The notes: generated by a model from the letters alone, not told the origin. A stretch of 30,824 nucleotides of DNA from a virus (IMGVR_UViG_3300048839_000472:1-30824), one strand, 5' to 3'; counted from the first letter of the stretch, positions 2,057 through 21,102 are shown. A program made the numbers and translations.

Positions 2057-2209
2057 TTATCGTCGAAACTGAGTAAGGGTCTCCCCTTGGAGGGACGCCC
2101 CATTGCTGGGGTATCCTGCGCATACTCCGATGACTGCTGCCAACAGGCAACCGCCAACGAAGATGCAGAACAGGACGCTAAGCCCATTGTTCAGATCTTG
2201 CGTATTCAT
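2057..2209 (-). CDS. 50-aa single-span membrane protein
   Basis: I chose the ATG at 2209, giving MNTQDLNNGLSVLFCIFVGG followed by CLLAAVIGVCAGYPSNG and a polar tail ending TQFRR. A single hydrophobic helix (about residues 10-28) with several Cys residues is the only clear feature. It lies 52 bases downstream of the 216-aa gene on the same strand. A longer in-frame reading upstream to 2317 would overlap that gene heavily and is less likely. Function is unknown; a small phage membrane peptide is the safest description. Confidence 0.45.
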   Translation of the reverse strand: MNTQDLNNGLSVLFCIFVGGCLLAAVIGVCAGYPSNGASLQGETLTQFRR

Positions 2210-2261
2210 GTTATTGTAATTTTGATTCCTCTCCCCAGCTTTTACACTGGAGAGTGGAGTC

Positions 2262-2912
2262 TTAGACCAATTCGGCGACGACGTGCTTGCGGGCTGCGTC
2301 CAACTTGGCCTGGGCAACTTTGCCTTGGCTGTTGGTAAAGCCGGACAGATCGACCTGGTTTGCCGACGCGAGGGCGAGCAAAGACGCAGAGTCCATGCCC
2401 ATGATGCTCTCTTCGGAGAGATCGGGTTCGCTCGATACTGCCGGAGTGCTGGGACGTGCTCCGAGGATGGAAGCGAGGTCGTTAACCTTCTTCGTAGCCT
2501 GGGGCAGCGGAGAGCATCCGACTACGCGCAATACCTGCTTACCGGCGCGGTTTTCGACATGGCCGATGGAGAGTTTTACTACTTCTCCGTTCTCGGGGAT
2601 GTAGCGGGAATTCTCGCGGAAGCCTTGGGAAAGACCGAGGTTCAGGGCAGTCTGGAAATCGCCGTTGTTGAACGCCTCAACCAGCTCTTCGACTTGGTCG
2701 GGAGCAATGGCCTGGAAGTTACAGATGATCCGGGTCTCCCCGGTCTCTTCATCAACGAATTCGTTGCGGCCCACACACTTGGCGGTAAGGCTGCCCTCAC
2801 CACTTACAGTGTTCCGCAATTTAGCGTTGACAAGGCGTTCAAAGGCTTCGTAGGTCATCTCCCTGGGAGTACCGTCGCCATTGACCAATTGGATAACATC
2901 ATTCGGGTTCAT
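2262..2912 (-). CDS. 216-aa protein with C-terminal HeH/SAP-like segment, function unknown
   Basis: It starts MNPNDVIQLVNGDGTPREMT and is the first gene of the leftward arm. The central part (about residues 45-130) is beta-rich, with two Cys and a conserved-looking run (NSRYIPENGEVVKLSIGHVE) that suggests an OB-like or other small barrel fold. After a low-complexity linker (RPSTPAVSSEPDLSEES), the last 40 residues (SLLALASANQVDLSGF...) resemble the helix-extended-helix/SAP nucleic-acid-binding hairpin. Together this suggests a DNA- or RNA-binding protein such as a single-strand binder, but no family is certain. Plus-strand frames over it are composition shadows. Confidence 0.7.
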   Translation of the reverse strand: MNPNDVIQLVNGDGTPREMTYEAFERLVNAKLRNTVSGEGSLTAKCVGRNEFVDEETGETRIICNFQAIAPDQVEELVEAFNNGDFQTALNLGLSQGFRENSRYIPENGEVVKLSIGHVENRAGKQVLRVVGCSPLPQATKKVNDLASILGARPSTPAVSSEPDLSEESIMGMDSASLLALASANQVDLSGFTNSQGKVAQAKLDAARKHVVAELV

Positions 2913-3306
2913 ATGAACAAATTGAGGTGAATAAATGCTATGAAGTTGACAGCCTTCGGCCAGAGGAACCCCCCGGGCATTGAAAACTGTCCAGACTTAG
3001 TGGGGGTCTTCATTCAGGTGGTCCCCCCTCTCTCATCTCTCCAAAATTTTTTCTCAACATTCCCACAGAAAATTATCACTCTAATATTTTCCCAAAAATT
3101 TTTCCCAAATAAAATCGATCCAACATTCAAAATATACCCCCGGTATCGAAAAATTACTCAAAAAATCTTCAAAAATTAAGACCCCAAAAATTTTTTTTCA
3201 ATTTTTTGAAATTTTTTTTCTCAATGTTTACGCGGGTTTCAGCCGATTTTGACCTTTTTTGTTTAACTCTTTTTAAAAAAACCCCCTTTTTATCATTTTT
3301 TTTTAT

Positions 3307-3314
3307 TATATTTG
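3307..3314 (+). promoter_or_regulatory. Bacteroidota-type -7 box (TATATTTG)
   Basis: TATATTTG matches the TAnnTTTG -7 consensus used by the primary sigma factor of Bacteroidota. It lies directly upstream of the structured leader and about 475 bases before the first rightward gene. No good TTTG -33 element is present at the usual distance, only a T/C-rich run, so the call is moderate. It is the best candidate for the start of the long rightward operon. Confidence 0.4.
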
Positions 3315-3324
3315 CAACAGTTTT

Positions 3325-3780
3325 ACATGATTCTCAAAGTAGTGTAAAATTAGCCTACGCCCATAGACCTAAGGAATCTATGGAAACGGAACGCGCCTTA
3401 GGCCCCATTCTACAAGGCTATGGGATTTCCTAAGAGCACAGACGTCGGATTGTAGCCACTAAATAAGTGGTGAGTTTTCTCCGATAGGGCGACAAGGATT
3501 AGATATAAACCAGGATACGAGGGAGATTAGACAAAAGTATTGGTCTGCTTGAATTAACAAGATGATTTTATTTCCTCCGTGGTGTAAGAAATTGAAGATG
3601 CAAATCTGAGATTTTATCGGACTGTCTTGGCGAAGTTCTTTTCTGAAATAAGACCCGCGCTTTTCCGCTAAGAAAAAAGTGAAGGGGGAAGCCTTGGTCT
3701 GTCTGGTTGAATCGTATATCAGATTATCTGTTATGATGATAATACAGATTATACGATATTGAATATTCAGGAATGAAGCT
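3325..3780 (+). ncRNA. candidate structured leader RNA of the rightward operon
   Basis: About 450 non-coding bases follow the promoter box and are richer in G/C than the genes after them. Helices visible by eye are: CCCATAG 3360-3366 with CTATGGG 3418-3424; CCTAAGG 3368-3374 with CCTTAGG 3396-3402; CCACT/AGTGG around 3456-3470; and ATCGTATA/TATACGAT with an inner ATCTGT/ACAGAT near 3712-3758. CCATAG can alternatively pair with CTATGG at 3378-3383, and CCTTAGG with CCTAAG at 3429-3434, so mutually exclusive folds are possible. It fits no tmRNA, RNase P or group I core that I could find. Confidence 0.4.
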
Positions 3781-3788
3781 ACACGCGC

Positions 3789-4010
3789 ATGAGTTATGCA
3801 AGATTAAAAAAGGAAGTTGATCGATTGATTGGCTTTCTTGAGGCGCCAGATTTAGTGGTGGTTATTGATGATGATGATAACAGGACAATGTTTTGTTACA
3901 ATCAAGAAGTTTTAAGAGATATGCTCGTAAGGCTACGGATGGAAGAAAATTCTGATGATGAACTTAAAGTACGCTCTGTTAGAAGTAAAGAAGCTATATC
4001 CCAAAGTTAA
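3789..4010 (+). CDS. 73-aa hypothetical protein
   Basis: First gene of the rightward train (MSYARLKKEVDRLIGFLEAP...). It begins with a short amphipathic helix. Next come a hydrophobic strand with an acidic cluster (LVVVIDDDDNRTM) and a second helix (NQEVLRDMLVRLRMEE). The last 18 codons overlap the next gene in another frame. No family is recognised. Its position just behind the leader makes it the first product of the operon. Confidence 0.55.
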   Translation: MSYARLKKEVDRLIGFLEAPDLVVVIDDDDNRTMFCYNQEVLRDMLVRLRMEENSDDELKVRSVRSKEAISQS

Positions 4011-4188
4011 TATAGATATAGAAGTTAAGGATAATGAGTTTTGTTGGTATATTTATGGTATGCCGTATAAGAAAGATTTGAAGAAAGTAGTAAAGAAAAA
4101 TGATGGGATAAAATTTAAGATTCCAATTGAATTGTGGAATGACGAAGAAACCGTCATTAGAGTTTTAAAAGAAACGTTGCTGAAATGA
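3955..4188 (+). CDS. 77-aa hypothetical protein
   Basis: It starts at the first of two adjacent ATGs (MMNLKYALLEVKKLYPKVNI...; 3958 is equally possible). The sequence is Lys-rich with alternating strands and helices (DNEFCWYIYGMPYKKDLKKV). It overlaps the gene before by about 56 bases and the gene after by 4 bases (ATGA), so it is likely translationally coupled. No family is recognised. Confidence 0.55.
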   Translation: MMNLKYALLEVKKLYPKVNIDIEVKDNEFCWYIYGMPYKKDLKKVVKKNDGIKFKIPIELWNDEETVIRVLKETLLK

Positions 4189-4589
4189 TAGAAGAAACCG
4201 AAGCTATAGAGGTATTTTATGGAGAAGTTCCTTTATGGCCTACTGATGTAAAATTAAAAGTGTTTATTGGGAATCTTGGGATTCCTGATGTAATGACACG
4301 AATGTTAGGAGAAAGTCCTTTACATTGGGCAGAGATAGTTGGAAACAACGGTTCTTTGTCTTTCTTTTTTAAAGGGATGAATAATGAAGATTCCATTGTT
4401 ATGTATCTTGATGATAATAGAGTGGATCTTCTAATTAGAGAGGCTTTGGCTTCTGTATGGATTCTTGCTCAAAAAGAGAAGATAAAGATTAATGAAGATA
4501 ATTTGAGATTGATTTCAGACTTTGTAGTATATATTGTAAAGGCTGTTTTCAATTATAAAAGACATGGGTTAGATGAATCCGAGGATTAA
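4185..4589 (+). CDS. 134-aa hypothetical protein
   Basis: Starts MIEETEAIEVFYGEVPLWPT. It is acidic, with an N-terminal beta-rich half and a C-terminal helical half (LIREALASVWILAQKEKIKI). It overlaps the winged-helix gene by 17 bases. No motif or family is recognised. The start codon overlaps the stop of the preceding gene (ATGA), which supports the chosen start. Confidence 0.6.
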   Translation: MIEETEAIEVFYGEVPLWPTDVKLKVFIGNLGIPDVMTRMLGESPLHWAEIVGNNGSLSFFFKGMNNEDSIVMYLDDNRVDLLIREALASVWILAQKEKIKINEDNLRLISDFVVYIVKAVFNYKRHGLDESED

Positions 4590-4971
4590 TTTAAAGCTGG
4601 AAAGACAAGAGAAAGATATGTACAAAGATTACTTCTATCTTGTTAACTTGCACAGGCCAGAAGAAATGCGAATGAGTGGTAGAGAAATTGATCTTGCTGC
4701 CGCATTTGCTGTACTTGGTAATTTTTCGGTAGAACCTAGAAGTAGAAACACAAAGAATTTTGATTTGTTAAAAGAACAAACTGGAATGAGTTCTTCTATG
4801 ATTTCCCAGTATGTTGCTAAGTTAATGGATAAAAGAACATTGATAAAGGATGAGGATGGTTTGATTCGATTGCCTGACTCTGCTTTACAGTTTGTGAAGG
4901 TTTTGAAAGGACAACTTCAGAAAGAAAAGAAGTTTGTTTTTAACTATGATATAGAATATGAAGTTCAATAA
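4573..4971 (+). CDS. winged helix-turn-helix DNA-binding protein
   Basis: A 132-residue protein. Residues about 30-105 read as a winged helix: helix (GREIDLAAAFAVLGNF), a putative recognition region (LLKEQTGMSSSMISQYVAKL) and a wing (DKRTLIKDEDGLIRLPDSAL). The pattern 'TGMSSSMISQYVAKLMDKRTLIKDEDGLIRL' resembles MarR/ArsR-type replication or transcription regulators. It is placed early in the operon, so it may regulate phage transcription. Regulator identity and target are inferred from the fold only. Confidence 0.6.
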   Translation: MNPRINLKLERQEKDMYKDYFYLVNLHRPEEMRMSGREIDLAAAFAVLGNFSVEPRSRNTKNFDLLKEQTGMSSSMISQYVAKLMDKRTLIKDEDGLIRLPDSALQFVKVLKGQLQKEKKFVFNYDIEYEVQ

Positions 4972-5173
4972 GGTGTTGGATCAGATTGATTATGAAATTA
5001 TTCAGTGGAGAAAACTAATAGGAGAAATACCACACACCCTTATTGTTGATGTATTAACTTATCATAGAATTAAGGATGAATTAGAAATGCCTGTGTATCT
5101 TTATTTGAGCAGGTTAAAAGGTATGAGATTATTAGTAATGTTCACTGATGAGAATATTATTGAGTTTATATGA
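4958..5173 (+). CDS. 71-aa hypothetical protein
   Basis: Starts MKFNKVLDQIDYEIIQWRKL. It begins with a helix (QIDYEIIQWRKLIGEI), followed by a strand and helix pair (HTLIVDVLTYHRIKDEL) and two hydrophobic strands near the end (LLVMFTDENIIEF). It overlaps the gene before by 14 bases and the gene after by 4. The layout is seen in many small crAss-like proteins placed before the packaging genes, but it has no recognised function. Confidence 0.55.
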   Translation: MKFNKVLDQIDYEIIQWRKLIGEIPHTLIVDVLTYHRIKDELEMPVYLYLSRLKGMRLLVMFTDENIIEFI

Positions 5174-5502
5174 ATGAAATTGATACCAGAGTTTCTGGGG
5201 CTGAGGATATACAAAGTATAATTGACGAGGTCGCAGAAAGAAGTGGAGAGAGTCCGGAACTGATTAGAAAATTACTGTACAATGCTTTTGATTATATTAG
5301 AGCTGGTTTACAGAATCCGGAAAGGCCTTATATAATGTGGAATAAATTGTTCACGTTTAAGATGATGCCAAAAAGAATTAATCAGTATATCGAAAAAATT
5401 GAAACAGGAAAGGTACAATATCGCCCAGGAATGGAAATGAAACTGGAGAGGTATAGAAGGTATCTTGAGTTATGTAAAAAATATTATAATGGCAGTTGGT
5501 AA
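5170..5502 (+). CDS. 110-aa protein, possible distant HU/IHF-like DNA-binding protein
   Basis: Residues about 12-45 form two helices (IQSIIDEVAERSGESPELIR, then LLYNAFDYIRAGL). They are followed by a beta segment (RPYIMWNKLFTFKMMPKRIN) and a basic helical tail. The order helix-turn-helix, then a 'phi-x-G/N-x-F-x-F' strand, is that of HU/IHF subunits ('..v...l..GFG.F..'), and IHF-like genes are common near the structural genes of crAss-like phages. Similarity is weak and the long arm is not obvious, so this is a suggestion only. Confidence 0.5.
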   Translation: MNEIDTRVSGAEDIQSIIDEVAERSGESPELIRKLLYNAFDYIRAGLQNPERPYIMWNKLFTFKMMPKRINQYIEKIETGKVQYRPGMEMKLERYRRYLELCKKYYNGSW

Positions 5503-6115
5503 AAAAAGTAGCATTATTACACCAGATCAAAGTATTTATCTTCCTAGTAATGAAGCACAAAATATAGTCTTTGAAAGGCAGCAAAAAATTGGTGCGGAAA
5601 AACAGGCAATAGTTGAAGAATATAACAGGAATCTGTATAATATTGATCCCCGGTTTAAGGAAAAGATTTTTACGAATGGGATGGTTGTTGTTAAATTGAT
5701 GAAAGATGACTATCTGGAGATTAACCAAGACAGCGAAAGAAACGAAAGCGGTTTGATTATAAATGCCCCAACCAGAAAACAATCAAGGATGCAGGTAGAA
5801 TCTCAAGGAGGAAAATTAGAAATGATTGATAATCCTGTTCCTTATCTTATGATTGGTGTTGTTTGTGCTTTTGATGAAGATATTTTGGAGAAGGCCGGTG
5901 GTACTATGAAAGAGCATCTTAAAGTTGGCGCTACAGTTGAATTATTTAATTTGTCTCTTCAAGATTCCATTTATTATATTGATAAGAAAAAAGCAGATTC
6001 TCCTATTGAGAGAAATGAATTAATTGCTGGTGTAAATCCTTTCCCTAATTACGAGGGATATGTTTTGGTTAGACCTAGTGATATTGAATGTTTTATTCCT
6101 AAAATTAAGCTGTAA
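5489..6115 (+). CDS. 208-aa protein with possible GroES-like (co-chaperonin) fold
   Basis: I chose the ATG at 5489 (MAVGKKSSIITPDQSIYLPS); the frame stays open upstream to 5465 but only through a weak TTG start. From about residue 55 the order of elements recalls 10-kDa chaperonins and phage gp31-type versions: a strand 'NGMVVVKLMKDD', a mobile-loop-like charged stretch with 'SGLIIN', 'MIGVVCAFDED', then 'HLKVGATVELF' and a final 'YVLVRPSDIECFI'. If correct, it would help the host chaperonin fold the capsid protein. The N-terminal 50 residues are not part of that fold. Confidence in the gene is high, in the fold moderate. Confidence 0.65.
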   Translation: MAVGKKSSIITPDQSIYLPSNEAQNIVFERQQKIGAEKQAIVEEYNRNLYNIDPRFKEKIFTNGMVVVKLMKDDYLEINQDSERNESGLIINAPTRKQSRMQVESQGGKLEMIDNPVPYLMIGVVCAFDEDILEKAGGTMKEHLKVGATVELFNLSLQDSIYYIDKKKADSPIERNELIAGVNPFPNYEGYVLVRPSDIECFIPKIKL

Positions 6116-6483
6116 TGGGGAGAAATAAAAAAGGCCTAGAAACTTCGGACAATACTTTGCAAATTCAATTGGCTGTTCTCAAAGAAGAGAATTTAAAATT
6201 GAAAGAAAGGATCGTAGAGGAAAGAAAAGCAGGAGCAAGATATCAAGCACTAGTAAATGTTATTTTGTGTTTTATTGCCGCTAAGTTTGGAACGATTAAG
6301 AATTTTCAAAAGCTTGGTGGATGGAAAAATGTTTGGATGTGGGCTACAGCTATTCCTTTCTTGATTGATGTAATTTCTGAAATTGTTTGTATTGCTAGGA
6401 AGGATGAAGAACATGCTTGTAATGATAATGAGAAAAGAGAAGAAAGATTGAACTCTTGGTGTAAGCAAATAGGTTTAAAATGA
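6115..6483 (+). CDS. 122-aa coiled-coil membrane protein
   Basis: Starts MGRNKKGLETSDNTLQIQLA. An N-terminal coiled coil (about residues 15-40, LAVLKEENLKLKERIVEERK) is followed by hydrophobic stretches at about 45-60 and 75-92 (WMWATAIPFLIDVISEIVCI) and a charged tail with two Cys. The start overlaps the preceding stop as TAATG. Coiled coil plus membrane helices could suit an inner-membrane spanin or a superinfection-exclusion protein, but no family is recognised. Confidence 0.6.
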   Translation: MGRNKKGLETSDNTLQIQLAVLKEENLKLKERIVEERKAGARYQALVNVILCFIAAKFGTIKNFQKLGGWKNVWMWATAIPFLIDVISEIVCIARKDEEHACNDNEKREERLNSWCKQIGLK

Positions 6484-6710
6484 TTTGGTTTTCTACAGCT
6501 ATAACAATTGTAATGTTTTTTGTGTCTATTAAAACATATTGGGAAAATTCTGAATTACTGAGAATTTATCAAGATGTATCGAATATTGATCAAGAAGATA
6601 GAAAAATCATGTACGGATCTGGATTGCTAACATTTTATTTTGCCGGGTTCACTGTTCTTTCTTTGGCTTCTTTAATATTTCAAGTGATATGGATCATTCA
6701 CAATTTGTAA
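6480..6710 (+). CDS. 76-aa two-span membrane protein
   Basis: Starts MIWFSTAITIVMFFVSIKTY. It has an N-terminal transmembrane helix (about 2-18), a polar loop with acidic residues (DVSNIDQEDRKIM) and a second helix (about 48-74, TFYFAGFTVLSLASLIFQVI). It overlaps the genes on both sides by 4 and 22 bases. It is one of three small membrane proteins in this stretch. A hairpin membrane protein of this size could be a holin or an exclusion protein; the sequence does not decide. Confidence 0.6.
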   Translation: MIWFSTAITIVMFFVSIKTYWENSELLRIYQDVSNIDQEDRKIMYGSGLLTFYFAGFTVLSLASLIFQVIWIIHNL

Positions 6711-7006
6711 ACAAGTTTAATCTTTTGGTAGAAGAGTTAGATGGCACTCTTCTTAAGAAAGGAAGTGATTATGCAAATCAGGATAAGTTGTCTAACTTTA
6801 AATTGGCTGGAAATATTACAGGGATTGGGGCACCATTGAATTGCCTCAATCTCGTTGCAACTAAAGTAGCAAGACTGGGGGTTTTATTGAATAGTGATAA
6901 AGAGCCAAGTAATGAGTCAATCCAGGATTCTGTAAAAGATCTTATTTGTTATGGCATCTTATTATACATGATATTAGATGAACGAGATCATAATAGCGTT
7001 TTTTAA
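6689..7006 (+). CDS. DUF1599 / nucleotide modification-associated domain 1 protein
   Basis: A 105-residue protein matching the short all-helical DUF1599 family along its whole length: 'KKGSDYANQDKLSNFKLAG' near the N-terminus, then 'NCLNLVATKVARLGVLL' and 'NESIQDSVKDLICYGILLYM'. Members occur widely in phages and sit next to nucleotide metabolism and DNA modification genes. The fold is related to MazG-type nucleotide pyrophosphohydrolases, and the conserved acidic residues (D of GSDYA, E and D of NESIQD) would bind metal. The exact substrate is unknown. No base-modification gene is in view. Confidence 0.75.
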   Translation: MDHSQFVNKFNLLVEELDGTLLKKGSDYANQDKLSNFKLAGNITGIGAPLNCLNLVATKVARLGVLLNSDKEPSNESIQDSVKDLICYGILLYMILDERDHNSVF

Positions 7007-8872: not shown

Positions 8873-9046
8873 ATGGCAATAAAAATTTTTGACCCAATTA
8901 TTTATGCTAACTGGGATCCAGATGAAGAGTTGGTAAACGAAGCAGCAAAGCTTATTCATGAGGCCAATGAAATACTTGATGAAGATGACGAAGATATTGA
9001 GGAAGGTACACAACTAGAGTTTGATTTTGGTGACGAAAAAGATTAA
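8873..9046 (+). CDS. 57-aa acidic hypothetical protein
   Basis: A short frame starting MAIKIFDPIIYANWDPDEEL and ending LEFDFGDEKD. It is strongly acidic in its second half (EILDEDDEDIEEGTQ), and the leader before its ATG is A/T-rich as for its neighbours. It ends 17 bases inside the chosen start of the large terminase, so the two are probably coupled. An acidic mini-protein next to a terminase could be a regulator or DNA mimic; this is speculation. Confidence 0.55.
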   Translation: MAIKIFDPIIYANWDPDEELVNEAAKLIHEANEILDEDDEDIEEGTQLEFDFGDEKD

Positions 9047-12000
9047 CTTTAAAGTAGCAAGAATATGGGATGACTATGAAAGTAGCATCCCAGTAGATAT
9101 TCTAGAAAAATATCCAGAGCTGTATGGCCCGATCACACATATGAGTTTAAAGAATCCAGTGCGCAATACCGATGAGCCGCTGCTATTTTTTAATGATGTT
9201 AGTGTGTTTAGGCCAGCAGCCCTGGCTTTTGAAAAATCAAGGCAAGAAGCTAAAGGAACAAGCCTAGATCCTAAATATACTTATGCCCTGGAGGGGACAA
9301 AAGCGTATAAAGATTTTTGGGAAGAAGAAAGGCGTAGATGTTTGCAAGGATATGAGCCTATTATTGATGGCGAACCTTGCGGTGTTAGAATTACAGGAGA
9401 GCACTATTTTTATCTTAACTACTGTATTATTGGTAAAGTAGTAAAGAATGAAATGACTGGTGAGGATACCGAAGAATTGGGATTCCCTAATTTTGCTTCG
9501 ATGGATTATTACTGGTTCAAGGAACTGGAAAAATCAGAGAACCCGCCAGAAGGAAAGGAAAAAGAAAACTTAATTGTGGCCAAGGCGAGACGAAAAGGAT
9601 ACCAGCAACCTAATTCGGAAATAGTAATGACTCCTAATGGTTATTCTACTATGGGTCAACTTAAACCTGGAGATAAAGTTTTAACGCCAACAGGAGAAGC
9701 CACTATATTAGAATATTATCCGCAAGGGCTTTCAGATGTCTATGAAATTGAGTTATATGATGGCAGGAAAGTTACTTGTGGTTTGGAGCATTTGTGGGAA
9801 GTTTATAGTAGAGTAGGAAGAAACGGAGAAAGACAGAAAAAAGTTGTAGATACAGAATACCTTTTGAAGCAACAATTAAAAAAACGTAATGCCTATCAAT
9901 ACTACCTTCCTATTAACGAAGAAGTTCAGTATGAAGAAAAAGAATTGCCTATCCCAGCATATACAATGGGTTGTATTCTTGGTGACGGTAATGTAAGTAA
10001 ACAGTTTAAAATTTCTGGTATAGACGATGAAATTTTTAATTATTGTTTAGAAGAGTTGGAAAATTATTACTCCGGTGGCGTGTATGAAATAGGAGCAGTT
10101 TATAAAGCAAACAAACAGTATGTTTTTGCTTGTTCACCAGAAACTAAAAACTATTATAAGCAAAAATATGGAACTTCTAAATTTGCTAATAGCGTTAACC
10201 CAGTATATGAGGAATTAAAAAAATTAAACTTAGACTGTACGTCGGATAAAAAATATATTCCTTATGAATATAAAATAGGTAGTGTAGAACAACGTTATAA
10301 CCTGGTTAGAGGTCTTATGGATACCGACGGTTCCATTACAAAAGATGGATACATTTCTTTTTCTAATGTGTCAAAACGACTTGTGTTGGATTTACAAGAA
10401 GTTTTGTACTCTTTAGGTATTGTATCAGTTTTTAGGCAGAGAAAAGATGGCTTATACATACTTTATATTGGCACAAGTAAATCTGTGTTCAAAATAAGCA
10501 GAAAGCTAAATAGAATAAAGCCTGAGATAGAACATAGAAACTATATTCCGATAGTTTCAATAAAAAAGTTAGATTATCAAGAGGAAAGTAGCTGTATCTT
10601 AATAGATTCAGACAATCACCTATATTTAACCAGAGGCTATATAGTAACGCATAATTCGTATAAAAACGCAGCTGGCGCCGTATGGAAATATACTTTCTTT
10701 AAAAACTCTAGGATTATTATTGGTGCTGAGTTTGGACAAAAGGCCAAGCAAACTTTTGATATGTGTTTGAACATGATTGATTTTCTTAATCAAAACACTG
10801 AATTCAGAAGTCCTTGGACCCATAGGAAAAGCGCAGAAACTAAATGTTATATTCGTTCTGGTGTAGAAGTAGAAAAAAATGGTAGAAAGTATACTAAAGG
10901 TAAAAAGTCTATTATCGAAACTGTTTCTTTTAGTAATAAACCAGATGCGGCTGCTGGTGCTTCTGCCACAAGAATATTGATCGAGGAGGCTGGTTTGATT
11001 ACAAATCTTAAAAAAGCCTGGAAATTTACTGAACCGTTATTAAGATCTGGCAAGAAAAGAAAAGGGATCGCAATTGCCTTTGGTTGTGTAACTAAAGGAA
11101 CAAAATTGTGGACTGCCGAAGGAAAAGTTGTAAATGTAGAAGACGTAAAATTACATGATCAGATCCTCGGTTATAATAAAATTGGCGCATCAAAAGAATC
11201 TGTCTCTTATTTGCAAGAACCCGCCAAGAAAGACTGTTACTATATTAAAACAGACAAAGGAACAGAATTAGAGTGCTCTTTTGACCACCCTATTCTGGCT
11301 AGTAATAACCATTCCTATTATCGGTTTAGAAAATATCTTGATAAGAAAACCCGTATAACAGAAAAAAGGGTTAAAAAGGCCTCCTTTGTTAGAGCGGAAG
11401 ATTTACAAAGGAAAGATCAAGTTGCTGTTATTGATTCAGTTCCTATGTGGGGAAAAGAACATCTTTTAGAAGCAAGATTTATAGGATGGTTAATAGGGGA
11501 CGGTTCTTATGGTTTCGATAAAACCCCGGTGCTATCCACAGAAAATGATGAGTTGTTTTCTCACGTTAAAAATAACTATGAACATACAGTAGAAAGGGAA
11601 AGAAAAACCAAGTTGGGCCGAATTTATCGCGAAATAAGAATAAAGGGCATTACTAAATATCTTAGACACACTGGGATTTATGGGCAGACTAAACAAGCAA
11701 AAAGATTGCCGATAGATATACACAAGTATAATCGAAAAAGTTTAGCAGAATTGCTTGGTGGACTGTTCGATACAGATGGATGTGTATTTTATAAAAGAGA
11801 TAAAAACGGACATTTAAATGGTTATATAAACTTCACTACGGCCGTAAAAGAATTGGCCGAAGAAGTTAAATACCAACTGATTAAGTTTGGGATTCATGCA
11901 AGTGTTGAGACAATTAAATCAAAACCAAGAGACAGAAAGATACAGGATAAAAGTATTTATTATAGGGTTTCTATAAGAGAGTCTGTTTCTATAAAAAGAT

Positions 12001-14630
12001 TTTATCGCCACATATCTTTTAGAGTAAAATATAAACAGCAAGCCTTGTCCAATTTTTATCGTCTTATCAAGAAAGAAAAGAAGATTGGCATCACCAAAAG
12101 CGCGCTTGTATTTAGAAATGGGAAAGAATTTGCAACAGTTTTATATCTTAATGGAGTAAGATTTGAAACTATAAAAGAGATAAAACCTATTGGAGAAAAA
12201 GATATTTACAATCTTACTGCTGAAGGAACAAATACTTATTTAGCAAACAACATTATTACCCACAATACGGGCGGGGATATGTCCGGTTCTACACAAGATT
12301 TTGCTGATATGTTCAATGATCCTTCTTCTCATATGTTTAAGGTATACGATAATATATATGAGGAACACGACTCTAGGGGGAAATGTGGTTGGTTTGTTGA
12401 CGATATGTGGTTTAGAGAAGGTGCCTGGGTTGAGATCAATGGCATTAGATATGAAGCTGTTGATGATAATGGCAATGCTTTAAAATGGGTAGCTGAAATA
12501 GACCTTAATCAAGAAAGAGCAAAGATAGCTGGAAAAGATAAAGAGGCTTATACAGTTGCCTTGTCGCAGTATTGTAAAAGTGTATCTGAGGCTTTCCTTA
12601 TTACTTCTGGTAATGTTTTTCCTGTTGCAGAATTGTCTTCTAGATTGAGTGTATTAAAAACTCCTGAAGGACAAAGGTTAGCAGGGACAAACGGAGATCT
12701 CGTAGAAAAATCCGGAGTTGTATATTTTCAACCAGATTTAACTGGGAAAAAAGAACCTATAAATCGTTATCCTACACCGAAAAGCAAAAAGAATTTAGAT
12801 GGTTGTGTTGTACAATTTGAGGCGCCGTTGGAAATAAACGGTAAAGTCCCTTCTGGTGCTTATATTATTTCCATTGACCCTCTTGGTATTGATGGTGCCG
12901 GCGAGGAATCACTTGTAGCTATATATTGTTTAAAGACAAAAAGATATGCACATTTAATTGGACACGATGAGATTGTTATGTCTTATGTTGGGAGGCCAGC
13001 AGTAGATCCTCTTGATGCTACTAATTGGATTCTTCTTAAAATGGCAAAATACTATAACGCAAAGGTTACACATGAAAATGATAGAAATGGTGCTGCAATA
13101 AGAAATTTCTTTATTCAACAAAAAGAAGTTGGAAGATTATTAAGGCCACCTGCTGACATTGTAGAAAAACATGTAACCCACTCTACTACTAATTTAAGAA
13201 AATCTGGCCACTCAATGGGTAACGTAAAGTTAAAAGAATTGGGTGAAATTTATCTTAAGAGATGGTTATTAGAGAGGAGGGGACTTAATCCAAGCAATGG
13301 GCTAGAAGAATTAAATTTAGATAAAATAAATGATCGTGGCCTTTTAGAAGAGTTGATATCCTATAATAGAGATGGAAACTTTGACAGATGCGTTGCAAAA
13401 GGAAGCCAAGTTCAAACATTAAAGGGTAAAGTTCCAATAGAATATCTTAATATTGGTGATCTTGTTTTAACTCATACAGGACATTATAAACCAGTAATAA
13501 AAACAACATCTACTATACAAGAACTTACAACCGAAGTTTATGTTGTGGGGCAAAATGAACCGTTAATTTGTACCCACGACCACCCAATATTAATTTCAGA
13601 ACAAGATAAACGGGCTGGCAACAGGCACTGGAAATTTAACGAAAAAACCTGTTTTAAATCCGCCGCATCTTTAACTCCTTACAGAGATTTTGTGTTTATT
13701 CCTAAGGAACAAGAGATCAAATACTTTTTAACTCCAGAAGAGGAGTACTTGGTGGGATGGTATGTTGGAGATGGTTATCTGCATAAGAATAGGCTAACAA
13801 TAACTTTTGGAAAAAAAGAAATGGAACAAGCAAAGAAAATTGCGGATATCATGGATAAAATTTCTTTGCAACACGATTTAACGCCCCACCATAACACAAA
13901 GCCAACAGCAACAATAAAAGATATGGGGTCTCATATATTAGTATCTAGAAATTCTCCATATATTGCAAGCATATGTAAAACATACGGTGGAGTTGCAAAC
14001 AATAAAAAACTGGAATTAAATAGTATAGAGGCCGCCATAGGGATTTTAGAAGCAGAAGGAAGTTTAAAGATTACGCCGAGGGTGGCAGTAGAAGTTTCTA
14101 TGTGTGATAAACATGTCATAGAAAAAACGAGACAAATTTTAATTAATTATGGAATATGGTCCACACAAAGAACTTTCAAGGTTAAAAATTACAAGAGTAT
14201 GTATAAGTTGACTATTCCACATCTGTACGTAGATCGCCTTACAAAATATACTCAAATGTACAAAACCAACCTCCGGGTAAAACAAATGCGAAACGTTGCT
14301 ATTGAAACGGAAAACGGGTTTTTAACTCCCGTAAAAAAGGTGGTTACAGAAAGAAAAAAACAATTGTTTTTCAATTGTGAAATTGAAGAACACCACACTT
14401 ATGTTTGCCAAGGTTTTGTTTCCCACAACTGTTTAGCATTTATGGGTTGTGTTTTACAACAAGAACAGATGCTTCTCTATATGAAAGACACAGAAGAAAA
14501 CGAAGAGAGAGATGAGGCTGCCGAATTTTTTAAAGAAAGGCTGCTGTATTTACCATCAATAAACAAAAAATATTATCATGAGCGAGTTAACACTAAGGTA
14601 TCGTCCGCCACAAAGAATCCCGTTTTCTAA
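9030..14630 (+). CDS. terL: phage terminase large subunit, interrupted by three inteins
   Basis: The precursor is 1,866 residues from the GTG at 9030 (MTKKINFKVARIWDD); a TTG at 9021 is an alternative. Removing three inteins leaves about 774 residues, normal for crAss-like large terminases. The motor packages DNA into the prohead using ATP and cuts it with an RNase H-like nuclease. Visible motifs in spliced order: Walker A (KARRKGY|SYKNAAG, intein 1 at the bar), Walker B (RILIEEAG, Glu652-653 of the precursor), the coupling motif (GIAIAFG|TGGDMSG, intein 2), nuclease motif I (YIISIDPLGIDG, Asp1283), motif II (HENDRNG), and motif III (GNFDR|CLAFMGCVL, intein 3). The 3' end overlaps the portal start by 53 bases. 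The protein can only work after triple protein splicing. Confidence 0.95.
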   Translation: MTKKINFKVARIWDDYESSIPVDILEKYPELYGPITHMSLKNPVRNTDEPLLFFNDVSVFRPAALAFEKSRQEAKGTSLDPKYTYALEGTKAYKDFWEEERRRCLQGYEPIIDGEPCGVRITGEHYFYLNYCIIGKVVKNEMTGEDTEELGFPNFASMDYYWFKELEKSENPPEGKEKENLIVAKARRKGYQQPNSEIVMTPNGYSTMGQLKPGDKVLTPTGEATILEYYPQGLSDVYEIELYDGRKVTCGLEHLWEVYSRVGRNGERQKKVVDTEYLLKQQLKKRNAYQYYLPINEEVQYEEKELPIPAYTMGCILGDGNVSKQFKISGIDDEIFNYCLEELENYYSGGVYEIGAVYKANKQYVFACSPETKNYYKQKYGTSKFANSVNPVYEELKKLNLDCTSDKKYIPYEYKIGSVEQRYNLVRGLMDTDGSITKDGYISFSNVSKRLVLDLQEVLYSLGIVSVFRQRKDGLYILYIGTSKSVFKISRKLNRIKPEIEHRNYIPIVSIKKLDYQEESSCILIDSDNHLYLTRGYIVTHNSYKNAAGAVWKYTFFKNSRIIIGAEFGQKAKQTFDMCLNMIDFLNQNTEFRSPWTHRKSAETKCYIRSGVEVEKNGRKYTKGKKSIIETVSFSNKPDAAAGASATRILIEEAGLITNLKKAWKFTEPLLRSGKKRKGIAIAFGCVTKGTKLWTAEGKVVNVEDVKLHDQILGYNKIGASKESVSYLQEPAKKDCYYIKTDKGTELECSFDHPILASNNHSYYRFRKYLDKKTRITEKRVKKASFVRAEDLQRKDQVAVIDSVPMWGKEHLLEARFIGWLIGDGSYGFDKTPVLSTENDELFSHVKNNYEHTVERERKTKLGRIYREIRIKGITKYLRHTGIYGQTKQAKRLPIDIHKYNRKSLAELLGGLFDTDGCVFYKRDKNGHLNGYINFTTAVKELAEEVKYQLIKFGIHASVETIKSKPRDRKIQDKSIYYRVSIRESVSIKRFYRHISFRVKYKQQALSNFYRLIKKEKKIGITKSALVFRNGKEFATVLYLNGVRFETIKEIKPIGEKDIYNLTAEGTNTYLANNIITHNTGGDMSGSTQDFADMFNDPSSHMFKVYDNIYEEHDSRGKCGWFVDDMWFREGAWVEINGIRYEAVDDNGNALKWVAEIDLNQERAKIAGKDKEAYTVALSQYCKSVSEAFLITSGNVFPVAELSSRLSVLKTPEGQRLAGTNGDLVEKSGVVYFQPDLTGKKEPINRYPTPKSKKNLDGCVVQFEAPLEINGKVPSGAYIISIDPLGIDGAGEESLVAIYCLKTKRYAHLIGHDEIVMSYVGRPAVDPLDATNWILLKMAKYYNAKVTHENDRNGAAIRNFFIQQKEVGRLLRPPADIVEKHVTHSTTNLRKSGHSMGNVKLKELGEIYLKRWLLERRGLNPSNGLEELNLDKINDRGLLEELISYNRDGNFDRCVAKGSQVQTLKGKVPIEYLNIGDLVLTHTGHYKPVIKTTSTIQELTTEVYVVGQNEPLICTHDHPILISEQDKRAGNRHWKFNEKTCFKSAASLTPYRDFVFIPKEQEIKYFLTPEEEYLVGWYVGDGYLHKNRLTITFGKKEMEQAKKIADIMDKISLQHDLTPHHNTKPTATIKDMGSHILVSRNSPYIASICKTYGGVANNKKLELNSIEAAIGILEAEGSLKITPRVAVEVSMCDKHVIEKTRQILINYGIWSTQRTFKVKNYKSMYKLTIPHLYVDRLTKYTQMYKTNLRVKQMRNVAIETENGFLTPVKKVVTERKKQLFFNCEIEEHHTYVCQGFVSHNCLAFMGCVLQQEQMLLYMKDTEENEERDEAAEFFKERLLYLPSINKKYYHERVNTKVSSATKNPVF
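9603..10655 (+). mobile_element. TerL intein 1 (351 aa, Gln1, LAGLIDADG endonuclease), Walker A site
   Basis: The block begins QQPNSEIVMTPNGYSTMGQL directly after extein ARRKGY and ends YIVTHN before extein Ser. Splicing block B carries CGLEHLWEV, and the C-terminal His-Asn plus Ser+1 are intact. The middle contains both LAGLIDADG helices (MGCILGDGNVS and LVRGLMDTDGSI), so it can plausibly home. The first residue is Gln instead of Cys/Ser, so the normal N-S/O acyl shift at position 1 cannot occur. Such Gln1 inteins are known from phage P-loop proteins and must start splicing by another route. The Walker A location explains selection for precise removal. Confidence 0.9.
11085..12266 (+). mobile_element. 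TerL intein 2 (394 aa, Cys1, LAGLIDADG endonuclease), coupling-motif site
   Basis: Starts CVTKGTKLWTAEGKVVNVED after extein GIAIAFG and ends NNIITHN before Thr+1 (TGGDMSG). The canonical blocks are present: Cys1, block B 'ECSFDHPILAS' with its His, block F 'DIYNLTAEGTNTYLANN', and the C-terminal His-Asn. Two LAGLIDADG motifs (FIGWLIGDGSYG and LLGGLFDTDGCVF) keep their acidic residues, indicating an active homing endonuclease. The Lys/Arg-rich region after the second motif probably binds DNA. It interrupts the loop linking the ATPase to DNA movement. Confidence 0.93.
13389..14429 (+). mobile_element. TerL intein 3 (347 aa, Cys1, LAGLIDADG endonuclease), nuclease-motif site
   Basis: Starts CVAKGSQVQTLKGKVPIEYL after extein GNFDR and ends CQGFVSHN before Cys+1 (CLAFMGCVL). 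Block B is 'ICTHDHPILIS'. The C-terminal block is 'FNCEIEEHHTYVCQGFVSHN'. LAGLIDADG motif 1 is LVGWYVGDGYLH. Motif 2 is AIGILEAEGSLKI, where Glu replaces the second Asp; this is tolerated in many active enzymes. The insertion point is next to the Asp of the third catalytic motif of the nuclease domain, so an unspliced protein would be dead. Confidence 0.92.
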
Positions 14631-17097
14631 GAAGACGGAAGAATGGAGGAAGGATAATGTGAAATACTGGTGCGACCAAGCAGACCTTCTTTATTATAAT
14701 GAGTGGCAGAGAATGAATGAAAACTATCTTTTCCATAATAATGTGTTTAATCAAGAAGAGTTTCAAAAATACTGTGATCCGCTTGGATTAGATGCTGGCC
14801 GGTATACTGACTATGTGCAACCATTTAATAGGTTGCCGAACAAGATTAATACTTTAATGGGGGAAGAAAGGAAAAGGCCTTTTAATTTCCACATTAAACA
14901 ACTAGGAAGTAACGCTACAAGTGAAATTCTTAGAGAAAAAGAAAAGGACTTTAGGAATTATGTGAATGCCTTACTCCAAAGAGAAATAGAAATGCAACAA
15001 CTAGAGTTGCAACAAGCTCTTGGGCAGATTCAAGATGCTGATCAGTATGAACAAATGGCAGCAGAAATTGAAGCTAGATTCCAAAAAGAAAACGAGGGAG
15101 TTCTTGATTTAAATAAGATCAAGAATAAATATAAAAACAGAAAGACTACTAAGGAAAAATTAGCCACAACACTTCTGAAAAGTTTTATTGTTAAAAACAA
15201 AGTGAAACATAAGAAGAACGAAGCTTTTTTTCATGCTTGTGTAGCTGGTGTAGAGGCCCTTCATATTTATAATCATAATGGCAAAACTTATCTTGAAGTA
15301 GTAAACCCACTTGGATTAGCTTGGCACAAATCTCCTGAAGAACAGTTTATGCAAAATGGCGACGCTGTTACTTATAAAAGAGAGATGACTGTTGGGGATG
15401 TTATGGATTATTATGGAGACTATTTGAGTAAAGAAGATATTGATAATATCGAAAATTTTCTATCTCGTGTTTATGGTTTGGATGCAAAACTTTATTCTAA
15501 GGATGGTTATTCGCCGTCTCATTATGAAAATACAACGAAGGGATATTCGCGGTATGGTGACGGAGATGTAAGACATTCTGGTGCTTATGGACAAGGAACT
15601 TCTGATGAAAGTTTCCTTACTGTTTATACCACTTATTGGAGATCTCAAAGAATGGTGGGGTTTTTGACTACTATTAATGAGTATGGAAAAGAACAAGTAG
15701 AAATTGTAGACGAAGCTTATGATGTTCCTAAGTATGCGGAAAAGATTAAATACACTAATGAAGAAGGTGTAGACAAGATTCAATATACATGGCAAGACCA
15801 AATTACTGGTCAACCGTTTACTCTTCAGTGGGAATGGGTTCCTCAAATATGGCAAGGAACAAGAATCGAAGACAATATTTATGTAAATATCAACCCTCTT
15901 TATGGATATTCTGTGTCCGTACACAATCCTAAAGAACAGAAATTACCTATTATTGGTGTTGCCTATAATAATGTAAATGCGCCGATAGTTTCTATTTTTG
16001 ATAGAGGAAAACATTGGCAAAAGCTGTTTTTAGCAGTTATGCATAAATGGACTAAGCTAATTATGCAAGACCAGTCTGTTCTTAATACTTTGGATACGTC
16101 CCTTCTTTCCAAAGAAATCCCCCTTGATATAGCACTTCGCTATGCTTTTGATGTTGGCCTTCTTCCTTATAACTCTTTGAGTAATGCAGAAGGCGCTGGT
16201 ATTTTAAATAATACAAGAAAGATTATTGAGTCATTCAATCTTTCCAATCCTAACCTGGAAAGATATACTAACATCTTATTATTTCTAGACAATCAAATCT
16301 CTGATGCTGTTGGCGTAACAAAACAAAGAGAAGGGCAAATGGCTCAATACTCTAATGCTACCGATAATCAACAGTCTATTATTCAATCTTCGCATATTAC
16401 TGAAAGTGTGTTTGCACTTCATGATCTTCTTTGGGAAGATACACTGAATTGTGCCATGAAACTTATTGTCGCCAATATAGATAAGTACAAGGGTTTTATG
16501 CGCGAAATTTTATCGGACGAAGAAATTGCTCTTATTGATTTAGGAGAAATGAATGAATTTGATGAGTTTAGTATTCGCGTAGTAGATTCTAATAAGTTGC
16601 AAGAAGATATTAATCTTCTCCGTGCTAATGCTCAATCCCTTCTTCAAAATGATGAGAATGCTCTTAAATATTTGATTGCTATTATGGGCGCAGAAGGAAT
16701 GGCAGAACTCAAAGAAGAGATTTATGCTATTCAAGCTGACATTGAAGCGAGAAGAGAAGCAATGCAAAGAATGCAAGGCGAACAAGCACAGCAGATTGAA
16801 CAAATGCGTATTGAAGCTAGAGAAGATGAGCAAGAGCACGAAATTATGCTCAAAGAAATGGATATTCAAGGACAACTTCTTAAGGCAGAAATTGATGCGT
16901 TTAAGTTTCAAAAACAACTAGATTCTGATAATAATCAAATTCCAGACCATCTTGAACTTGCTAAATGGAAGTCTAAAGCGGAAACCGATAATCGCAAACT
17001 AGACTTGCAAGAAAAAAAGATGGAACAAGATAAGGAGTTGAAGGAAAAAGAATTGGCAATTAAGAAAACTCAAAAAGCAAAACCAAATGCTAAGTGA
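14578..17097 (+). CDS. portal protein (crAss-like type)
   Basis: An 839-residue protein starting MSELTLRYRPPQRIPFSKKT, overlapping the terminase by 53 bases. It forms the dodecameric ring at the head vertex through which DNA enters. The N-terminal clip/stem region includes 'NRLPNKINTLMGEERKRPFN', typical of crAss-like portals. A coiled segment follows (about 125-180), then the beta-rich wing and a helical crown. The last 130 residues form a long charged coiled coil. Within it lies DSDNNQIPDHLE, which looks like a calcium-binding D-x-D-x-N-x-I-P-D loop of the thrombospondin-3 type. Length, order after terL and the motif support the call. The calcium loop is a pattern match only. Confidence 0.85.
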   Translation: MSELTLRYRPPQRIPFSKKTEEWRKDNVKYWCDQADLLYYNEWQRMNENYLFHNNVFNQEEFQKYCDPLGLDAGRYTDYVQPFNRLPNKINTLMGEERKRPFNFHIKQLGSNATSEILREKEKDFRNYVNALLQREIEMQQLELQQALGQIQDADQYEQMAAEIEARFQKENEGVLDLNKIKNKYKNRKTTKEKLATTLLKSFIVKNKVKHKKNEAFFHACVAGVEALHIYNHNGKTYLEVVNPLGLAWHKSPEEQFMQNGDAVTYKREMTVGDVMDYYGDYLSKEDIDNIENFLSRVYGLDAKLYSKDGYSPSHYENTTKGYSRYGDGDVRHSGAYGQGTSDESFLTVYTTYWRSQRMVGFLTTINEYGKEQVEIVDEAYDVPKYAEKIKYTNEEGVDKIQYTWQDQITGQPFTLQWEWVPQIWQGTRIEDNIYVNINPLYGYSVSVHNPKEQKLPIIGVAYNNVNAPIVSIFDRGKHWQKLFLAVMHKWTKLIMQDQSVLNTLDTSLLSKEIPLDIALRYAFDVGLLPYNSLSNAEGAGILNNTRKIIESFNLSNPNLERYTNILLFLDNQISDAVGVTKQREGQMAQYSNATDNQQSIIQSSHITESVFALHDLLWEDTLNCAMKLIVANIDKYKGFMREILSDEEIALIDLGEMNEFDEFSIRVVDSNKLQEDINLLRANAQSLLQNDENALKYLIAIMGAEGMAELKEEIYAIQADIEARREAMQRMQGEQAQQIEQMRIEAREDEQEHEIMLKEMDIQGQLLKAEIDAFKFQKQLDSDNNQIPDHLELAKWKSKAETDNRKLDLQEKKMEQDKELKEKELAIKKTQKAKPNAK

Positions 17098-18781: not shown

Positions 18782-19830
18782 TAATTTTTGATGGCCTCGT
18801 GTAACATGAAAATGTTACTGGAAACTTACTAAATTGCGGGAACATCTTTATTCCCTTGCGTACCAAGCTTTTTTAGTGATAATAAAGTGGCTCAAATTAA
18901 CTACTTGAGATAAGGTAAAAAGCGACAAGGGTTAGACAATCCGCAGCGAAACAACTTAAAATATGGATTACAAAGAACTCTATAAAGAGCACGTGTTAGG
19001 AAAAAGTATAAAGCAACTTGCTGAAGAAAATAATATAGCACGCATAACCATAACAAGAAACTGGAAAAAATTAGGTCTCGAAACTATTATTAGGAGACAC
19101 GGAGAACATTCTTTTGACTACAATTTTTTTCAAAATATAGATAACCAAACAAAAGCATATATTTTAGGGTTTACTCATGCAGATGGCAGTGTTAGGCTCA
19201 AAGGTATAAAATATCAAATTCAAGAACAAGACAAGGAAATTCTTACTTATATTAAAAATTCCTTGAAAGCAACTTATACGGTTAAATCTTATCCGGCTAA
19301 AAAAGTAACAATAATGGGGAAAAAATGTCAAAGTAATGGCTATGCCATTTTAACGTTATTCTCCAGAGAAACTACACGGCAATTAAGAGAGCTTGGGTTT
19401 GAAGATAATAAAACTTTTTCAATAGGTTTTCCGCATTATATTGACGATGATTTAATTCGTCATTTTATCAGAGGAAGTTTTGATGGTGATGGTGGCATCA
19501 CTTTTTATACAGACAAAAGGTATAATCGGATTAACGGAGAGGCTTTTATTTGTGGCAACAGTATTTATATAGATGAATTAAAATTGTTTTTTGAAGCAAG
19601 GGGTTATACACCAACAGCAAGACAAATGGGAAAAATAAAAGTTTTGCGGTTTTTTAAACATGAAGAATTAAAAAGCTTGTATGACTTTCTTTATGAAGAT
19701 GCCGATTTTGCTTTAAATAGAAAAAAGAAAAAATTTGAACAGTTTTTAAATTTTAAGTTAGACGTTCAGAGATCATAATGTAAGCACCGTATAGGTGAAG
19801 GTATGATCCAAATTAGATTAAATTCTAATG
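18782..19830 (+). mobile_element. group I intron (1,049 nt) in the major capsid gene
   Basis: P1: exon ACGAGGT (18775-18781) pairs over 7 bp with GCCTCGT (18794-18800), placing the required U-G pair exactly at the splice site. P10: TTTTTGATG (18785-18793) pairs over 9 bp with TATCAAAAA (19831-19839), and the base before it is G (omega-G, 19830). The core is also present: P element AATTGCGGGAAC at 18832, P4 TGCGG/CCGCA (18835/18941), P5 CCCTTG/CAAGGG (18853/18926), Q AATCCGCAGCGA at 18938, R GTTCAGAGATCAT at 19764, and S AAGGTATGATCC at 19798, with GATCAT/ATGATC pairing R to S. The endonuclease ORF lies between Q and R. Confidence 0.95.
18963..19778 (+). CDS. intron-encoded LAGLIDADG homing endonuclease
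   Basis: A 271-residue protein starting MDYKELYKEHVLGKSIKQLA. Residues about 13-37 form a helix-turn-helix (KSIKQLAEENNIARITITRN). Two LAGLIDADG helices follow: KAYILGFTHADGSV (about 60-73) and IRHFIRGSFDGDGGI (about 161-175), each with its catalytic Asp. So it is a single-chain, probably active enzyme that would cut intron-less capsid genes and spread the intron. It has the A/T-rich, TTA/AAA-rich codon use of a selfish element, unlike the surrounding capsid exons. Its stop codon lies inside the R element of the ribozyme, so the last codons are constrained by RNA structure as well. Confidence 0.92.
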   Translation: MDYKELYKEHVLGKSIKQLAEENNIARITITRNWKKLGLETIIRRHGEHSFDYNFFQNIDNQTKAYILGFTHADGSVRLKGIKYQIQEQDKEILTYIKNSLKATYTVKSYPAKKVTIMGKKCQSNGYAILTLFSRETTRQLRELGFEDNKTFSIGFPHYIDDDLIRHFIRGSFDGDGGITFYTDKRYNRINGEAFICGNSIYIDELKLFFEARGYTPTARQMGKIKVLRFFKHEELKSLYDFLYEDADFALNRKKKKFEQFLNFKLDVQRS

Positions 19831-21102
19831 TATCAAAAACAGCGTTTCCGCGTTGTTGAAGTTGTTGAAACTTCTGCACGTCCTGGTGAGAATGGTGTTG
19901 AGATTACTTTTGTACTTGACAAGGGCTGGCTTCGCGAACCTGATGTCATCATCGGTGAACACAATGAATTTCCTTTGGAGATCGTTGGTGAACCTATACA
20001 AAGAGGTCTTGGCTGGGAATACAAAGCTATCCTCCAAGACAGCTCCAATGGTCGTTACTTCCCATCTACCCTGCTTCAAGTAGGCCGTGAGTTCTGGAAA
20101 GTTTCTACTAGCGTTGCTGATGAAATGAACGAAAAATATGGTACAATCCAGTTCAACTCTGTGTTCGAACTGCGCAGCCACACTGGTAACGTTGCTGAAA
20201 AACTGCAATTTACTGATCGTGCTCTGCGTGTCGATATTAACAACAGAGGCGGTGAAATGCTGAAATATTGGAACGTTCCTTTCCTTGATAATAAAGGCAA
20301 GCGTTACAGCAAGTTCATGACGATGGCTGAGGCCGAAATGATGAACCAAGTTTACGAAGATATTGAGTGGGGTCTGAACTATGGCCGTAAGTCGATCCGC
20401 AAAGGTCCTAACGGTTACCTGAAGCGTACTCCTGCTGGTCTTCGCCAGCAAATGGAAGATGCTCACCAACTGTTGCATAACGGTAACCTGACTCTTACTC
20501 GTCTGGAAGAATGGTTGAATGGTATTTACTATGGCCGTAAAGACGCTACTCCTGCTTCGCGCCGGGTGGTTCTTTCTACTGGCGAAATGGGTGCCAAGAT
20601 GTTCGACCAAATGGTGAAATCTGAGATTTCTAACTTTGTTACTGTTGACAGTCACTTCATTCGCAGTGGTGGTGATTTCCGTCACCTGAGCTTTGGTGTG
20701 CAGTTTACTCACTATGTTGGTGTAAACGGTTTGGATGTTACTGTAATGCTTAACCCGCACTACGATAATCCTGACTACTGTCCTCAAATGCACCCAGTTT
20801 ATACTGATAAGACTATTGATTCGTGGAGAATGGATATTCTTGACTTTGGTTCTACCAGAGAACAGTCTACTGGTGCCATGGGCGATAACATCGCTTTTGT
20901 TGCTGAAGATAATGCCGACTATTACTTTACTACCTTTGGTAAGCATGACCCCAAAACTGGCATGCCGATCAACGATGGTAGCCAAGGTCTGGCCGGTGGT
21001 GTTGGTGGTTATACCACACAAATTGAAAAATCTTATGGTCTTCTGATTCGTGACATTACTCGTTGTGGTGTTGTGAGATTGAATCTGGAATCGATCTATT
21101 AA
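19831..21102 (+). CDS. major capsid protein, exon 2
   Basis: 423 codons from the 3' splice site (YQKQRFRVVEVVETSARPGE...) to TAA. The ATG at 19828-19830 that appears to start this frame is the last intron triplet; its G is the omega-G, so it is not the natural start. Features of a HK97-type capsid are a basic peripheral region (NYGRKSIRKGPNGYLKRTPA), a domain rich in strands, and a Gly-rich C-terminus (GSQGLAGGVGGYTT). Codons are strongly biased to CTG, CGT, GCT and AAC, as expected for the most abundant virion protein. A terminator follows at once. The spliced product is 509 aa. Confidence 0.9.
   Translation, partial: YQKQRFRVVEVVETSARPGENGVEITFVLDKGWLREPDVIIGEHNEFPLEIVGEPIQRGLGWEYKAILQDSSNGRYFPSTLLQVGREFWKVSTSVADEMNEKYGTIQFNSVFELRSHTGNVAEKLQFTDRALRVDINNRGGEMLKYWNVPFLDNKGKRYSKFMTMAEAEMMNQVYEDIEWGLNYGRKSIRKGPNGYLKRTPAGLRQQMEDAHQLLHNGNLTLTRLEEWLNGIYYGRKDATPASRRVVLSTGEMGAKMFDQMVKSEISNFVTVDSHFIRSGGDFRHLSFGVQFTHYVGVNGLDVTVMLNPHYDNPDYCPQMHPVYTDKTIDSWRMDILDFGSTREQSTGAMGDNIAFVAEDNADYYFTTFGKHDPKTGMPINDGSQGLAGGVGGYTTQIEKSYGLLIRDITRCGVVRLNLESIY

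Follow-up and report, generated by a model that had tools for sequence, protein, structure and literature searches.

Three inteins at catalytic motifs in the large terminase of a crAss-like phage

The interrupted terminase gene

The window considered throughout this work is a complete virus record of 30,824 bases (IMGVR_UViG_3300048839_000472), a single environmental (metagenomic) contig in which the gene for the large terminase subunit (TerL) of a crAss-like phage is interrupted in frame by three inteins. Its frame on the + strand is uninterrupted and, depending on which of two possible start codons is used, specifies 1869 (TTG) or 1866 (GTG) amino acids (aa), of which the inteins account for 351 + 394 + 347 = 1092 aa, or 58.4-58.5% (Table 1). 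The joined exteins match phrog_6681, terminase large subunit (E 4.8e-85), and 139 phage records, chiefly of crAss-like or Flavobacterium phages, the best rows being 30-32% identical. They retain the Walker A-like loop RRKGYS and the coupling motif FGTGG, and the nuclease acids of extein 3 (D204, E270 and D373, the latter with R374) are invariant in an alignment of 11 sequences (A1). A portal gene (14578-17097) follows, and the major capsid protein (MCP) gene lies farther on (19828-21102); both match crAss-like and related records at 24-27%. The host gene is the large terminase of a phage of the order Crassvirales, and the crAss-like origin proposed in an earlier note on this DNA is borne out by the phrog_6681 match and by these portal and capsid genes.

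The insertion points were compared with an alignment of 69 TerL sequences, namely 68 intein-free TerLs encoded by a single open reading frame (ORF) and the joined exteins of the window. Intein 1 follows RRKG[FY] of the Walker A-like loop (site A, GY-S, the hyphen marking the junction), where the +1 residue is Ser in 65 sequences and Thr in 3. Intein 2 lies within the coupling motif (site C, FG-TGG), whose Thr, Gly and Gly are invariant, and intein 3 comes after NFDR of nuclease motif III (site N3, DR-C), whose Asp is invariant. Four intein-free relatives from viral contigs (L004-L007; L numbers designate loci outside the window) align gap-free across GY-S, FG-T and DR-V/C, with 54% (L004-L006) or 58% (L007) identity over extein 3, and the TerL of a genome-bin contig (L239, 57% identity) is likewise intein-free. 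The earlier note had described three complete inteins of these lengths filling 58% of the precursor and inserted at Walker A, the coupling motif and nuclease motif III, with junctions GY-SYK, FG-TGG and DR-CLA, and had named a comparison with intein-free terminases beforehand as a refutation test. The boundaries proved exact to the residue, and the open frame, the intein-free homologues and the Pfam profiles agree.

Table 1. Parts of the interrupted terminase gene, with positions counted from the first base of the window
Feature	Position	Strand	Remark
Large terminase (TerL) precursor ORF with three inteins	9021..14630	+	start codon TTG 9021 or GTG 9030
Extein 1: ATPase N-terminal part to Walker A loop (KARRKGY)	9021..9602	+	tblastn 57% to L004, 46% to L007
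Intein 1, 351 aa, site A (GY-S), predicted class 3, internal LAGLIDADG endonuclease	9603..10655	+	
Extein 2: ATPase core with Walker B region (ILIEEAG) to coupling motif (AIAFG)	10656..11084	+	71% to L004
Intein 2, 394 aa, site C (FG-TGG), predicted class 1, internal LAGLIDADG endonuclease	11085..12266	+	
Extein 3: coupling motif TGG, linker, nuclease domain through motif III (GNFDR)	12267..13388	+	54-58% to L004-L007
Intein 3, 347 aa, site N3 (DR-C), predicted class 1, LAGLIDADG endonuclease with second motif EAEG	13389..14429	+	
Extein 4: nuclease domain C-terminal end and stop codon	14430..14630	+	
+1 Cys codon (TGT) of the C-extein, site N3	14430..14432	+	empty alleles: Val, Ile, Ala, Leu or His

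Splicing classes and endonuclease domains

The earlier note treated the three inteins as equals, which does not hold: from its residues, intein 1 is assigned to mechanistic class 3, and inteins 2 and 3 to class 1. Class 3 inteins are defined by a W-C-T triad (PMC3196547, PMC5050341). Position 1 of intein 1 is Gln, not Cys, Ser or Thr, and its triad (B:12, F:4, G:5) consists of Trp65, Cys331 and Thr349, with a terminal His350-Asn351; when intein 1 is aligned with its relatives, the Trp is conserved in 35 of 36 sequences, the Cys in all 36 and the Thr in 35. The Pfam Hint profiles are not matched by intein 1. Its AlphaFold2 model (pLDDT 88.7, pTM 0.90) matches PI-SceI over the full length (321 residues, Z 27.0, root-mean-square deviation (rmsd) 3.4) and, in the splicing domain, the class 3 intein of M. 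smegmatis DnaB (6bs8; 122 residues, Z 19.0, rmsd 1.6, 25% identity). Same-site inteins are found in L008-L011, L075, L178 and L187. Inteins related to this class 3 group lie downstream of TerL as well, at 9296-10303 of L072, inside the annotated portal gene, and at 7700-8707 of L227.

Intein 2 exhibits Cys1, a block B ECSFDH, a C-terminal THN and Thr+1, and intein 3 Cys1, a block B ICTHDH, a C-terminal SHN and Cys+1. The search with Hint and LAGLIDADG profiles proposed in the earlier note was run: intein 2 scores 49.4 bits with Intein_splicing (cut-off 35.8) and intein 3 scores 35.5 bits with Hint_2 (cut-off 28.4), but just 25.4 bits with Intein_splicing. The endonuclease claimed for each intein was recovered in all three, LAGLIDADG_3 scoring 43.9, 57.1 and 27.2 bits in inteins 1, 2 and 3 (Pfam cut-off 22.5) and both acidic positions being kept (motifs GDG/DTDG in inteins 1 and 2, GDG/EAEG in intein 3).

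Used alone as a scan query, intein 2 gave no match in viral contigs; an alignment-based scan then succeeded, and site C inteins are present in dozens of other loci. Among these site C elements, the intein at 361-1503 of L095 has a C-terminal Lys-Gln in place of His-Asn before Thr-Gly-Gly, and L191 is similar (KQ-TGG), so that C-terminal Gln inteins at the coupling motif look recurrent. An intein about 40% identical to intein 2 is found at 6001-7068 of L068, at A-TGG; the terminase around it gives no match to the crAss-like profile, suggesting that the element has passed between terminase families. Intein 3 alone as a query likewise found no match in viral contigs, and the sole match of its alignment-based scan was L238, an intein-like insertion in an unrelated gene; at site N3 itself, inteins are otherwise known from L074, L192 and L244.

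One or more of the inteins might be decaying or defective in splicing, most plausibly intein 3, which is the most diverged and displays SHN in block G and EAEG as second LAGLIDADG motif; the phage would then be partly crippled or rely on co-infecting phages for its terminase. A class 3 pseudo-intein has been documented (PMC3196547). We consider this explanation improbable, since the frame is open throughout, the terminal catalytic residues are all present, Cys+1 is kept and the exteins retain every invariant motif. Moreover, LAGLIDADG enzymes can use Glu as a catalytic acid, as in I-DmoI.

Intein load and separate acquisition

Loci were gathered by intein-alignment scans and their insertion points mapped on a TerL profile, yielding about 134 intein-bearing TerL loci. 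Four sites are used among them, i.e. Walker A (A), the coupling motif (C), nuclease motif I (N1) and nuclease motif III (N3). Occupancy is C in 66 loci, N1 in 33, C+N1 in 12, A+C in 9, A in 5 and N3 in 2, with a few loci placed between sites by the linear mapping; these counts are not frequencies, since they include near-duplicate contigs and the majority of loci were retrieved through the similarity of their inteins. Two loci carry three inteins, the window (A+C+N3) and L192 (C+N1+N3), and about 20 carry two. In L192 (IMGVR_UViG_3300008255_001421, 1359-6863), one ORF of 1835 aa is interrupted at the coupling motif, nuclease motif I and motif III (junctions CAFG-TGG, YIAG-CDP and NFDR-CMA). 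A TerL with all four sites occupied was looked for among the mapped intein-bearing loci and not found. A literature search whose coverage excluded most subscription journals returned no TerL with three inteins. The triple insertion had been called exceptional, which is right in the sense of rare and wrong in the sense of unique, given L192 and the double loci. These same loci bear on the idea that the triple allele is an assembly chimera of the TerL genes of several phages, for which the metagenomic nature of the contig and the single occupancy of each intein site in other phages might speak. Such a chimera is hardly credible: besides the independent triple contig and the double loci, L004 and L007 are the nearest relatives of every extein between the inteins, and base composition is fairly even.

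The history of intein 1 differs from that of its host gene. Intein 1 of the window is 70% identical to the same-site intein of L008, whereas the exteins of these two TerLs share only 36-42% identity. In the extein tree, L008 is sister to L009 (support 100/100) and far from the window; in the intein tree, it is sister to the window (100/99). This conflict shows that intein 1 was horizontally transferred between terminases. When 27 TerL inteins, among them those of ten multi-intein genes, are placed in a tree, they group by insertion site and not by host, the four site groups requiring 3 label changes versus 14.3 in shuffles. Because its rows were chosen partly by similarity, this tree speaks for separate ancestry within multi-intein genes and not for a single origin per site. 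Since the inteins group by site rather than by host, the three inteins of the window represent separate acquisitions. Intragenic duplication of one intein was ruled out, inteins 2 and 3 being 23% identical and each of the three grouping with inteins that occupy its own site in other phages. Introns, as well as split or trans-spliced inteins, were also ruled out, because the gene is a single open frame and Rfam gave no match in the window. The TerL ORF has no recoded stop codons.

Taken together, it is highly probable that the locus is a crAss-like TerL with three separately acquired, horizontally mobile inteins, i.e. homing parasites that have accumulated in one gene. Several points weigh against this interpretation. 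Splicing, cleavage by the endonucleases and activity of the terminase are each inferred from sequence, and the triple allele is known from a single genome of its species, an environmental contig. For intein 3, the AlphaFold2 model is unusable (pLDDT 36, from a 3-row alignment) and identity to same-site relatives is about 32-33%. Between the window and L008, nonsynonymous (dN) and synonymous (dS) divergences of intein 1 are 0.25 and about 1.6, which is consistent with purifying selection, but dS is near saturation and dN/dS is therefore rough.

In our reading, the locus is an extreme case of a known type of gene invasion and not a new mechanism, each intein having same-site counterparts in other phages. 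The TerL of the crAss-like phage OBYQ01000140 (Delta group) has two inteins, described as of Hint-Hop type (Yutin et al. 2021, PMC7886860); it is similarly interrupted in frame by more than one intein, although it uses TAG recoding, whereas the window has three inteins and no recoding. Mycobacteriophage TerL inteins occupy sites a-g, all seven in the ATPase domain (Kelley et al. 2016, PMC5050341). They resemble those of the window in their use of the Walker A loop and C-motif sites, in belonging to classes 1 and 3, and in endonuclease homing and inter-phage transfer, but the nuclease motif III site is used in the window, L074, L192 and L244, and nuclease motif I in other loci. Outside phages, PolB of Haloquadratum walsbyi contains three inteins and other multi-intein archaeal genes are known (Turgeman-Grott et al. 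2023, PMC10643990). These too combine endonuclease-bearing inteins, three in the case of PolB, in an essential gene whose sites are occupied in varying combinations, yet PolB is an archaeal DNA polymerase and the gene of the window encodes a phage packaging motor. Finally, the DnaB precursor of M. smegmatis (PMC6195587) brings together both splicing chemistries in one P-loop ATPase, as in the window, but it is a helicase with two inteins, while the terminase has three, two of them putatively of class 1. The window illustrates the extent to which a single essential phage enzyme can become loaded with inteins. The TerLs of crAss-like phages thereby offer a natural four-site system to study occupancy, co-homing and interference between neighbouring inteins in phages, as done for haloarchaeal MCM. 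As 58% of the gene is not terminase, annotation based on length filters and gene callers will be in error at such loci.

Homing, packaging and the +1 residue at nuclease motif III

Each intein is expected to excise itself after translation, leaving a terminase of about 777 aa. For intein 1, the class 3 route would start with the attack of Cys331 on the peptide bond before Gln1, followed by transfer to Ser+1. For inteins 2 and 3, the class 1 route would involve an acyl shift at Cys1, transfer to Thr+1 or Cys+1, respectively, and Asn cyclisation. At the DNA level, each endonuclease would cleave its own target site in empty alleles, and its intein would then be copied into the break. As the interrupted motifs are all catalytic and invariant, imprecise loss of an intein would destroy the motor and the inteins would be retained. 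The best supported view is that of selfish elements residing where their homing targets are best conserved and where they are hardest to lose, so that three self-excisions would be needed for a working motor. Since each insertion splits a catalytic motif, packaging very likely depends on splicing.

This dependence could also be read as regulation, slow or conditional splicing keeping the motor switched off until infection is well advanced or a signal, redox or otherwise, arrives. Apart from the splitting of a catalytic motif by every insertion, such a timer or sensor might find a precedent in M. smegmatis DnaB, whose class 3 and class 1 inteins splice at very different rates and whose class 3 intein is inhibited by oxidation (PMC6195587), intein 1 of the window being itself a predicted class 3 member. 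However, relatives at 54-58% identity are without any intein and occupancy varies freely among phages, which means that no conserved need for inteins is visible. In addition, ready splicing in a reporter has been observed for five TerL inteins of mycobacteriophages (PMC5050341), and homing targets in invariant DNA account for the choice of sites. The splicing-dependent delay of packaging suggested earlier is unsupported for these reasons, and we regard a regulatory role as unlikely.

Splicing requires Cys, Ser or Thr at position +1. At sites A and C, the native +1 residue is already nucleophilic (Ser or Thr at A, Thr at C). Among the empty N3 alleles, the +1 residue is Val in 90, Ile in 8, Ala in 6, Leu in 2 and His in 2, with Cys, Ser or Thr in 0 of 108 distinct sequences (four Cys in the count were the inteins' own first residues and not empty alleles). 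Four loci carry an N3 intein (window, L074, L192 and L244), and in each of them the +1 residue is Cys, encoded by TGT; they do not represent four independent events, as all share one intein lineage. In the sequences compared, the presence of the N3 intein thus goes with a Val-to-Cys change beside the catalytic Asp of nuclease motif III. The earlier note had placed intein 3 correctly but had missed that the native +1 residue cannot splice and that the extein bears a Cys replacement.

In haloarchaea, a non-nucleophilic +1 residue (Pro) blocks splicing but not target recognition (PMC10643990). Because intein 3 requires a nucleophilic +1 residue and the empty alleles are without one, the simplest interpretation is that it can probably spread only together with the adjacent Cys codon. 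We tentatively propose, as a conjecture that could well go either way, that intein 3 spreads only by co-conversion of its own +1 Cys codon, the native residue being unable to support splicing, which would permanently alter the packaging nuclease beside its catalytic Asp. Alternatively, Cys+1 may come from rare pre-existing Cys alleles outside the sample. If co-conversion holds true, the parasite must rewrite its host protein in order to be removable. Through the Val-to-Cys change at N3, one can ask directly whether homing is able to carry an insertion into a target devoid of a splicing nucleophile.

Two further genes of the window deserve mention. A free-standing LAGLIDADG homing endonuclease is likely encoded at 18963-19778 (+), between the portal and major capsid genes, where the ORF matches PF14528 (24.2 bits, cut-off 22.5) and the phrog_4645 endonuclease. 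At 25587-27122 (+), a bacterial Ig domain protein (Big_9, 54.1 bits) is probably a head or fibre decoration protein.

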